Assembly (NCBI RefSeq): GCF_015207375.1
Contig: NZ_JADEWY010000065.1
Coordinates: forward strand, 1-36,420
Reading direction: 5' to 3'
DNA from: Coleofasciculus sp. LEGE 07092
GTDB lineage: Bacteria > Cyanobacteriota > Cyanobacteriia > Cyanobacteriales > Coleofasciculaceae
DNA: 36,420 nucleotides
The notes beneath the pieces were generated by a model. That model saw only the letters and a program-made list of their open reading frames with translations, made no database searches and was not told the DNA's origin. The position numbers and the translations under genes were made by a program. Shown one piece after another: positions 25,341 through 25,934 of the stretch (position 1 is the first letter of the stretch; every line of letters begins with the position of its first letter).

Positions 25341-25391
25341 TTAGCTGATTTATCCCTCATCCCCCAGGTGAAGAGGTGCGAGTTTCCGGTT

Positions 25392-25493
25392 CCCTCTCCT
25401 GTGGGAGAGGGCTAGGGTGAGGGCGAATTAAAGTATTATCTTCGGCAAGATAGCCCTCACCCCCCCAACCCCCCTCTCCCGCAGGAGAGGGGG
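25392..25493. repeat. Pair of inverted GC-rich hairpin repeats upstream of the DUF559 gene
   Basis: Unit A (25392-25424) starts with CCCTCTCC-TGTG-GGAGAGGG and goes on GCTAGGGTGAGGGC. Unit B (25453-25493) is the same unit in reverse, with the perfect stem CCCCTCTCC-CGCA-GGAGAGGGG and GCCCTCACC at its left. They face each other tail to tail, 28 bp apart. Loops differ while stems pair perfectly. Confidence 0.75.
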
Positions 25494-25504
25494 GTGATGA
25501 GGAG

Positions 25505-25528
25505 ATAGAGGTAGAGGTAGAGGTAGAG
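25505..25528. repeat. Hexamer tandem repeat (ATAGAG)(GTAGAG)3
   Basis: Four consecutive six-base units immediately upstream of the DUF559 start codon, in place of a normal Shine-Dalgarno. The GTAGAG units might act as weak GAG-type ribosome sites. Copy-number slippage here would change the leader, not the frame. Confidence 0.6.
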
Positions 25529-25530
25529 AT

Positions 25531-25923
25531 GTGGATGAGTTGGTTTATCTAGTCGGGGCTAGGAGGGATATTCCAGAGGAGTTGTTGCAACGGGCAAGGG
25601 AATTACGACAGCAACAAACTCCTGCGGAAAATATTTTGTGGGAGTGTCTGCGGGCAAATCGTCTGTACGGTTTTAAATTCCGACGACAGCATAATATTGG
25701 GCAGTACATTGCTGATTTCTACTGTCATACTGCCAAGCTAGTCATTGAGTTAGATGGTGAAATTCACCAAGCACAGACAGATCGAGATATCGATCGCGAT
25801 TCGTGGCTAGAAGCAAACGGACTAACAGTTTTACGCTTCAAAAACAACCAGATAATCCAAAACCTCGAACCAGTACTCCAAACAATCCTCTCCTATTTCC
25901 CCTCTCCTGCGGGAGAGGGGTAG
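25531..25923 (+). CDS. DUF559 endonuclease-like protein
   Basis: A 130-residue member of the DUF559 family, which adopts a very-short-patch-repair/PD-(D/E)XK nuclease fold. Family features are ARELRQQQTPAENILWECL, FKFRRQHNIGQYIADFYC, LVIELDGEIHQ (acidic metal ligands) and GLTVLRFKNNQI with the closing helix. Biochemical function is unproven for the family, though a single-strand nicking or repair role is often supposed. The start is GTG, following a hexamer tandem array. The last residues, SPAGEG and the stop, are encoded by the flanking hairpin repeat (unit C), so the repeat is part of the gene. Two more units stand just upstream. This packing suggests the gene and repeat move together. Confidence 0.85.
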   Translation: MDELVYLVGARRDIPEELLQRARELRQQQTPAENILWECLRANRLYGFKFRRQHNIGQYIADFYCHTAKLVIELDGEIHQAQTDRDIDRDSWLEANGLTVLRFKNNQIIQNLEPVLQTILSYFPSPAGEG

Positions 25924-25934
25924 GGGGTGAGGGC
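25899..25934. repeat. Hairpin repeat unit C overlapping the DUF559 stop
   Basis: CCCCTCTCC-TGCG-GGAGAGGGG (25899-25920), then TAGGGGGTGAGGGC. It is direct with unit A and inverted with unit B. It supplies the last six codons and the TAG stop of the DUF559 gene. Confidence 0.75.

Follow-up and report, generated by a model that had tools for sequence, protein, structure and literature searches.

DUF559 (YcjD-type) proteins as probable partner nucleases of BoxC/PIT/TMECO-type repeats

Introduction

BoxC/PIT/TMECO repeats are intrastrand-triplex motifs in which a pyrimidine arm, a loop, a purine arm, a linker and a tail mirroring the purine arm follow one another. According to the available part of the paper by Holder et al. 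2015 (PMC4666352), Escherichia coli MG1655 carries 23 listed TMECO copies, including 5 inverted pairs of one type A and one type B copy; these copies are always intergenic, are without association to transposons, phages or plasmids, and mobility functions were never found near them when their gene contexts were inspected. The same text reports that the motif forms a triplex in vitro, with stable formation in vivo unsupported, that TMECO-bearing E. coli loci vary more than controls, and that earlier work had found neither promoter nor terminator activity for these motifs. No partner gene for the motif is named in the literature examined, some of it available in part. Here a stretch of 36,420 bases from Coleofasciculus sp. 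LEGE 07092 (NZ_JADEWY010000065.1; contig 46 of a 6.7 Mb genome), referred to below as the window, was analysed; it contains a gene of the DUF559 (YcjD) family enclosed by repeats of this type. An earlier reading of its letters (the original prediction) had proposed that repeat and nuclease form a mobile unit comparable to REP/RAYT, with a different enzyme. Our results point to DUF559 as the dedicated partner nuclease of BoxC/PIT/TMECO-type repeats, the two together making up a mobile unit, a reading to which we assign a probability of roughly two in three.

A repeat with a partner gene is already known from the REPIN-RAYT system, the paper on which is reportedly by Bertels and Rainey (2011). 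RAYTs are seldom duplicated while their repeats spread. REPINs are inverted palindrome doublets with many gene-free copies, and their partner gene has the repeat on its own flanks (PMC3116915, available part), and a GTAG or CGTC tag at the foot of the palindrome typifies the system (PMC3733652, available part). In-frame insertion is described for the Rickettsia palindromic elements, palindromic repeats of approximately 150 bp within coding genes (PMC10969869, available part). On the protein side, YcjD has been treated as a putative PD-(D/E)XK nuclease whose profile detects Vsr, and the available text of that paper (PMC1189080) does not mention an association of the family with repeats.

Results

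The DUF559 gene of the window encodes a protein of 130 amino acids with a GTG start and matched PF04480 at E 5e-41 (139.4 bits, curated cut-off 20.6). Perfect CCTCTCCNNNNGGAGAGG hairpins were found at 25393, 25473 and 25901, the only exact matches in the window; when up to 3 mismatches were allowed there were 6 matches, compared to a mean of 1.15 in dinucleotide shuffles. The features of the locus are as follows:

25392 to 25424, forward strand: copy 1, a BoxC/PIT-type repeat, with the hairpin at 25392-25411 and the tail CTAGGGTGAGGGC ending at 25424
25453 to 25494, reverse strand: copy 2, inverted, with the tail (GCCCTCACCCCC...) followed by the hairpin at 25469-25494; left end of the proposed unit
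25502 to 25528, forward strand: GAGGTA array of 4.5 copies ahead of the start codon; possible ribosome site
25531 to 25923, forward strand: putative nuclease gene (DUF559, YcjD family, PD-(D/E)XK-type; PF04480), with its last codons and stop inside copy 3
25899 to 25934, forward strand: copy 3, with the hairpin at 25899-25920 and the tail TAGGGGGTGAGGGC; encodes PSPAGEG and the stop; right end of the proposed unit
25453 to 25934, no strand assigned: proposed unit, presumably 482 bp in extent, of inverted copies 2 and 3 (outer 12/12 inverted repeat) around the nuclease gene

The hairpin trio of the original prediction was re-computed and stands: all stems are perfect, the loops of copies 1, 2 and 3 are TGTG, CGCA and TGCG, and the upstream pair is mutually inverted. 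Between copies 2 and 3, the hairpins are inverted repeats of each other at 22/22 positions. The tail lies 3' of copies 1 and 3 and, as its reverse complement, ahead of copy 2; the outermost bases of copies 2 and 3 (GCCCTCACCCCC at 25453-25464 and GGGGGTGAGGGC at 25923-25934) are complementary at 12/12 positions. Translation gave PSPAGEG followed by TAG, in agreement with the claim that copy 3 supplies the 3' end of the gene (SPAGEG codons and stop). The hexamer array directly ahead of the start codon is also real; as it includes GAGG, it could itself be the ribosome site or, as the original prediction had suggested, could replace one, and either reading fits. Only DUF559 was found between copies 2 and 3, with none of the known transposases by which an insertion sequence (IS) or miniature inverted-repeat transposable element (MITE) family is recognised. 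In the whole genome of 6.7 Mb, the hairpin with a 4-base loop was found four times, three of which are the copies of this locus; when the loop could have 3-9 bases and the stem was relaxed slightly, 38 copies were counted, compared to 0 for reversed-pattern controls, so that gene-free copies, for which the original prediction had suggested a search, are present in the window's own genome.

By its architecture the window repeat is a BoxC/PIT/TMECO motif. All the elements of the motif follow in the same order in the window copies, and TMECO copy 1 of the published table, CCCTCTCCCTGTGGGAGAGGGCCGGGGTGAGGGC, closely resembles window copy 1 (PMC4666352, available part). Judged by sequence, a single strand of such a repeat could fold as a triplex through its mirror tail.

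Two further observations concern this genome and this stretch. A second DUF559 gene (contig 18, L002:1501-1779) is preceded at L002:1380-1420 by another hairpin, CCCCCCTTACCAAGGGGGG, and then TTGGGGGGG, and several repeat lineages within the genome are suggested. Window positions 25390-25424 gave a sub-threshold Rfam match to whalefall-1 RNA (RF01762; 26.7 bits against 37, E 1e-4), an RNA family which may have been built on BoxC-like DNA repeats.

One genome from each of 84,980 species was scanned, and the 80 best-ranked of the 584 stretches confirmed there, together with 20 further loci from the window's phylum (100 loci in total), served to assess the linkage of repeat to gene. By title, the 80 include cyanobacteria, Bacteroidetes, Chloroflexi, Proteobacteria, Spirochaetes, Desulfuromonadales and a Methanophagales archaeon. 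A hairpin was found within approximately 150 bp of DUF559 in 58/80 loci, compared to 43/574 other open reading frames (ORFs) of those loci, and at both ends in 30/80 compared to 2/574 (the full 150-bp flank being absent for 8/80 loci); the enrichment that the original prediction had looked for is thus present, and the flanks of DUF559 are much richer in the repeat than those of the other ORFs. In the window's phylum, the corresponding counts were 10/20 DUF559 genes compared to 14/229 other ORFs for either end, and 8/20 compared to 1/229 for both ends. The density of hairpins with a stem of at least 8 was 4.25 per kb in the 150 bp preceding the match and 3.67 per kb in the 150 bp following it, compared to approximately 0.1-0.2 per kb beyond 500 bp. 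When a mirror tail was also demanded, the motif was found within 250 bp in 60/80, 13/20, 21/28, 22/28 and 20/28 loci of five partly overlapping sets (one set overlaps the 80, and too-short loci were excluded from three: 2/30, 2/30 and 1/29), with densities of 1.7-2.05 per kb near DUF559 compared to 0.00-0.20 per kb beyond 500 bp; in the low-GC set (31-41%), 56,028 bases of outer flank contained zero such motifs. The 80 loci were ranked by their match to alignment A1, whose first sequence has a PSPAGEG tail, a bias of which the profile-chosen sets are free. The original prediction had pointed to similar PAGEG or LGEG tails in many DUF559 proteins; C-termini encoded by a repeat were observed in 18/66 loci with a readable stop (35/101 loci without a nearby stop, long-ORF cases among them, were excluded).

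Hairpins crowded within 150 bp of both gene ends could be terminators or RNA-stabilising hairpins which merely bracket a small gene. This explanation is very improbable, given that promoter and terminator activity was not found in the earlier work cited above (via the available part of PMC4666352) and that a mirror tail, in-frame copies within ORFs and a high genomic copy number are not features of terminators. An RNA element is likewise contradicted by the in-frame copies in host genes; Rfam families at gathering level were absent in 8 loci except for a tmRNA, and the window stretch gave sub-threshold matches only.

The tail was found to follow the stem of its own hairpin. A perfect (8/8) own-stem mirror tail was present in 120/150 hairpins within 300 bp of DUF559; the match fell to 19% (maximum 27% in 50 shuffles) when tails were swapped between loci and to 0.9% when tails were shuffled. 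In this test an A of the stem could be mirrored by either A or T, the better strand was counted (for controls likewise), and only hairpins with a pyrimidine-rich 5' arm were scored. The tail thus tracks the stem across many sequence variants, as would be expected if a triplex or a duplicated recognition sequence matters. The nearest copies on the two sides of DUF559 were mutually inverted in 34/41 loci (tails inward in 18, outward in 16), and an identical 8-base arm was present on both sides in 28/41, compared to 12% for random pairs. In one locus (L045, at approximately 9811 and 10204) a variant stem, CCTCCCCC, flanks DUF559 with a longer linker, so the mirror rule holds there with a different spacing.

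Genomes were searched for PF04480 (DUF559-positive at E below 1e-10) and the pattern CCCTCYCCN{3,9}GGRGAGGG was counted in them; the counts are uncorrected for phylogeny, with strata by family given for the window's phylum. Among 299 Pseudomonadota genomes (the phylum of Pseudoxanthomonas), at least 3 copies were present in 65/80 with DUF559 compared to 19/219 others (odds ratio 46), and the median copy number was 21 (up to 490) compared to 0, with 28 of the 219 having weak PF04480 matches. A reversed control pattern was no more common in the DUF559-positive Pseudomonadota genomes. In the window's phylum the corresponding counts were 107/160 genomes with DUF559 and 33/226 without (52/67 compared to 14/102 in family f31, and 55/93 compared to 19/67 outside f31 and f25).

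Inverted pairs of short palindromes also recall REPINs (PMC3116915, available part), and the repeats might therefore be REPs of the ordinary kind, mobilised by a RAYT/Y1 transposase, DUF559 being a bystander. The same 299 genomes make this hardly credible: Y1_Tnp (RAYT/IS200 family, PF01797) had no positive relation to the repeats (41/175 compared to 43/124, odds ratio 0.58), while DUF559 predicted them both with and without Y1_Tnp (odds ratios 64 and 30). In addition, the fixed GTAG/CGTC tag is absent and the tail follows the stem.

Four genomes (G560, G539, G598 and G453; L333-L348) contain 71 to 170 hairpin copies with no DUF559 match below 1e-10. In repeat-rich genomes of this kind the nuclease may have been lost, or a different partner may be present; DUF559 remnants were not found in 24 repeat loci (16 from these four genomes and 8 others).

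DUF559 also occurs in frame inside host proteins. In 31/100 loci it lies within open frames of 636-1485 amino acids, and a Pfam host family was identified for 31/31: leucyl-tRNA synthetase (LeuRS; 5), another class I tRNA synthetase (1), cobalamin-dependent methionine synthase (6), HsdR (5), HsdM (3), HsdS (1), other restriction-modification proteins (7), UvrA (1), RecJ (1) and a family 31 glycoside hydrolase (1). Host domains were found on both sides of DUF559 in 21/31, the others being one-sided or having a second stretch whose position was not printed. A hairpin at the strict setting was kept in 23/31, and the translated repeats form linkers such as LPSPPAPLPRGEG or TPPSPQGEGGRG. Pfam scans of the 31 host ORFs gave no intein or Hint family at E 1e-5.

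When the Leeuwenhoekiella LeuRS was aligned with PDB 1h3n, query residues 303-450 were skipped against chain residues 237-241. Within the family of Leeuwenhoekiella (149 genomes, 148 matched) the insert was found in one alignment in 12 genomes and in pieces in a further 2; the stretch from WIG to RPDTIF measured 32-41 amino acids in 16 empty alleles and 160-194 in 11 filled ones (16/17 empty and 11/13 filled loci being readable). Hosts that are 94% identical carry inserts of 50% identity, and in another pair the values are 85% and 30%; inserts so much less alike than their hosts suggest separate gain or replacement. In 3/16 empty alleles (L367, L369 and L371) an unrelated in-frame repeat, read as VIASEAKQS, occupies the same loop, so that the site preference is partly just protein tolerance. 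A gene-free repeat pair lies in frame within a NACHT gene of the window's genome (contig 57, L009:1068-2153), between what we read as a Walker A segment and the part of the gene that the NACHT profile matches.

A series of alleles was found in Bradyrhizobium, where strain CNPSo 4026 has a DUF559 unit exactly between pheS and pheT (L117). Of 117 genomes with a match, 90 slots were fetched and 86 had both genes readable; DUF559 was present in 46/86 and absent from 40/86. Among the 40, the slot is fully empty in 13, with pheS and pheT overlapping by 4 bases; it measures 55-124 bp in 11, of which L267 has one perfect hairpin and six have, by our own reading, a degraded one; and it holds 395-567 bp of other DNA in 15. 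A further gene-less slot (L260) keeps both hairpins, and each of its ends (hairpin and inner neighbour sequence) aligns closely with the gene-bearing form. Two features of IS and MITE families are thus present: terminal inverted repeats (the 12/12 outer repeat of the window) and an internally deleted derivative (L260). The gene-bearing slots are of two kinds (16 and 30 genomes), with 41-47% protein identity between the second and L243, which belongs to the first; where perfect hairpins were found, their variant is specific to the kind (12/30 of the second kind show none at that setting), and some first-kind members add an outer inverted repeat, CTCTCCGTT...AACGGAGAG. The first-kind gene is under purifying selection, with a median ratio of non-synonymous to synonymous substitution (dN/dS) of 0.083 over the 45 pairs kept (14/16 sequences extracted; mean dS is high, 1.3).

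In L265, L266 and L322 the pheS-pheT slot holds an unrelated small ORF of approximately 130-135 amino acids, which in L265 and L266 is accompanied on one side by a BoxC-type hairpin. The slot looks like a hot spot for small inserts.

Purifying selection, the co-occurrence of DUF559 with repeat load, and the kinship to Vsr and other PD-(D/E)XK repair nucleases (PMC1189080, available part) would also suit a structure-specific nuclease which clears or processes hairpins or triplexes at stalled forks, is kept for the repeat load and adjoins copies for self-regulation. Such a repeat caretaker is quite unlikely, since three things would not be predicted by it: the presence of DUF559, mostly with repeats, in leuS, metH, hsdR and further genes, the existence of filled as well as empty alleles, and the L260 deletion derivative keeping both ends.

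In E. coli MG1655, ycjD (DUF559, E 1.4e-49) sits between fabI and sapF. TMECO copy 9 (1,351,204-1,351,239; position from the available part of PMC4666352) is 168 bp from the ycjD end at 1,351,407, and a second copy over the ycjD end encodes its last residues and matches the TMECO 10 hairpin at 22/23 positions; with 18 sites in the genome, the chance of a site within 250 bp of a given gene of that size is approximately 0.3%. The 1.6-kb ycjD stretch was found at a level of at least 80% in 3,334/5,426 genomes. The gene is not universal, PF04480 being unmatched in one E. coli control genome. Three other strains have an efflux gene cluster between fabI and sapF (L239-L241) where MG1655 has ycjD and BoxC (L041:6164-6839), so this is not a simple empty site. 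In one E. coli strain an IS1-type transposase gene was observed within ycjD.

The predicted structure of the window protein (AlphaFold2, mean pLDDT 84.9) was closest to the DUF559 structure 3hrl (Foldseek E 3e-8; E 2e-21 in a separate match of the protein) and then to the catalytic domain of the Vsr-like homing endonuclease I-Bth0305I, 3r3p (E 4e-4, TM 0.60/0.78), an enzyme of the EDxHD type; Toxoplasma mitoribosomal proteins followed at E 8e-4. This agrees with the Vsr/PD-(D/E)XK-like fold expected from the original prediction. Residues matching E33, D62, E73, D75 and H79 were invariant in two alignments (18 and 21 sequences). DUF559 is accordingly regarded as a putative nuclease with a predicted fold related to that of I-Bth0305I. 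Two other roles were considered and rejected. As mainly phage or plasmid cargo it would be poorly placed, the window protein matching only 3/50,697 phage and 41/72,556 plasmid records (tblastn, E 1e-5), and as a known anti-phage defence gene it received only weak PADLOC matches (best E 2e-4, 17 bits).

Comparison of DUF559 paralogues within genomes gave a DNA identity of 66-76% for gene stretches and of 83-91% for short stretches (37-59 nt) beyond the gene, which are probably the repeats; the gene has therefore not been duplicated recently in the genomes compared. With old gene paralogues and better-conserved repeats, DUF559 is like the RAYTs as introduced above.

Old paralogues would also be expected of a passive cassette, in which host homologous or illegitimate recombination carries the DUF559 gene between recombination-prone repeats and the nuclease is irrelevant. 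The differing cargo of the same slots (other DNA in pheS-pheT, the efflux cluster in fabI-sapF) and the higher variability of TMECO loci in E. coli (PMC4666352, available part) fit it as well. It leaves unexplained, however, why a single gene family should be the cargo across phyla (58/80 compared to 43/574), why repeat number tracks DUF559 and why the gene is under purifying selection, and we consider it unlikely.

Discussion

The repeats described here share with the published BoxC/PIT/TMECO motifs the order of arm, loop, arm, linker and mirror tail and the frequent inverted pairs; the E. coli copies of that paper are intergenic (PMC4666352, available part), whereas here repeats flank DUF559 and also lie in frame inside genes. 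REPIN-RAYT is alike in having inverted doublets, gene-free copies and repeat copies on both flanks of the partner gene (PMC3116915, available part), and here too the partner gene lies between inverted copies (34/41 loci) with gene-free copies elsewhere. The REPIN-RAYT partner, however, is an HUH Y1 tyrosine transposase, compared to a PD-(D/E)XK-type protein of PF04480 here, and the GTAG/CGTC tag contrasts with a stem-mirroring tail. As these two defining features differ, the present system was filed as a separate one of repeat and partner nuclease; unlike REPIN-RAYT, its gene-bearing unit also inserts in frame into host proteins. I-Bth0305I resembles DUF559 in its Vsr/EDxHD-type fold and, as with homing endonucleases, filled and empty alleles occur at one site with some inserts unlike; other LeuRS pairs look inherited, and the loop also accepts another repeat. 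DUF559 differs in having its own terminal repeats and many sites, with no intein family in the Pfam scans. Group I and II introns were absent from the Rfam matches on the window stretch and 8 loci. In-frame palindromic insertion is shared with the Rickettsia elements (PMC10969869, available part) and was found in the 31/100 DUF559 loci and the gene-free NACHT pair; here the insert often holds a whole nuclease domain. The window protein is itself a member of the DUF559/YcjD family (ycjD, PDB 3hrl).

On the preferred reading, the self-sufficient unit would be the nuclease gene between inverted repeat copies, and gene-less pairs and single repeats would be its dependants or remains. The enzyme may recognise the folded hairpin, and perhaps the tail triplex, when the DNA is single-stranded or extruded, and would cut at or near it; repair of the break would then copy the repeat, with or without the gene, to another place, much as happens with homing endonucleases. 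Some reading frames of the repeat are open, so insertions in coding genes would survive where a protein loop tolerates them. Homing-like copying, cut-and-paste and passive recombination between repeats all fit the data. The mobile unit of the original prediction is supported by the flank enrichment and the alleles, and we infer movement by DUF559 itself.

A number of results weigh against this reading. No hairpin was found at the strict setting in 22/80 loci, including 8 of the 31 in-frame cases, and tail orientation is variable, with 56 tails toward the gene and 75 away from it among 131 scored hairpins. At the genome level, the searched pattern occurs fewer than 3 times in 15/80 Pseudomonadota genomes with DUF559, while at least 10 copies are present in 12/219 Pseudomonadota genomes without a DUF559 match below 1e-10 and in 18/226 genomes of the window's phylum without DUF559. 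No recent duplicates of DUF559 were found within one genome when 25 loci of 9 genomes were compared. Two LeuRS pairs look inherited (host 88% and insert 76%; host 85% and insert 78%). No target-site duplication was identified in the single flank set inspected, whose flanks are too diverged to show a short one. Empty sites of the kind the original prediction had proposed to look for were found for pheS-pheT and LeuRS, and no clean one for the window copy: among 36 relatives, no match joins the neighbouring ABC1-kinase and VTT genes. Matches to both neighbour genes were found in relatives, strong to both in one relative only, on different contigs. Finally, cleavage and movement are argued from sequence and a predicted fold. 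In favour of mobility, the unit was not seen at this place in any of the 36 relatives, and the fixed and syntenic arrangement that would have spoken against it was not observed; the window copy may have moved recently.

In the open-access literature searched, no paper was seen to link DUF559/YcjD to BoxC/PIT repeats, subscription papers and bioRxiv preprints lying mostly outside that search. As far as checked, the parts are known separately, and there is apparently no description of their partnership, of the insertions in frame or of the series of alleles. We tentatively suggest, with somewhat less than even confidence, a new class of mobile element: a single gene in a unit of approximately 0.5 kb, with a Vsr/homing-type nuclease that would recognise triplex-forming hairpin ends, spread gene-free pairs and insert in frame, including into essential genes, in many bacterial phyla and at least one archaeon. 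YcjD and BoxC of E. coli would then be its best-known members, and domains would be added to proteins without splicing, both points being put forward equally tentatively.

DUF559 offers a concrete partner for the known and unexplained BoxC/PIT repeats, ycjD and BoxC coexisting in E. coli K-12. If the partnership is true, it would assign a role to a widespread, functionally uncharacterised protein and add a second, unrelated enzyme type to the repeat-partner systems. It would also explain the repeat-encoded tails of DUF559 proteins and the DUF559 domains within tRNA synthetases, methionine synthase and restriction enzymes, and would provide a way for DNA parasites to supply proteins with additional domains.

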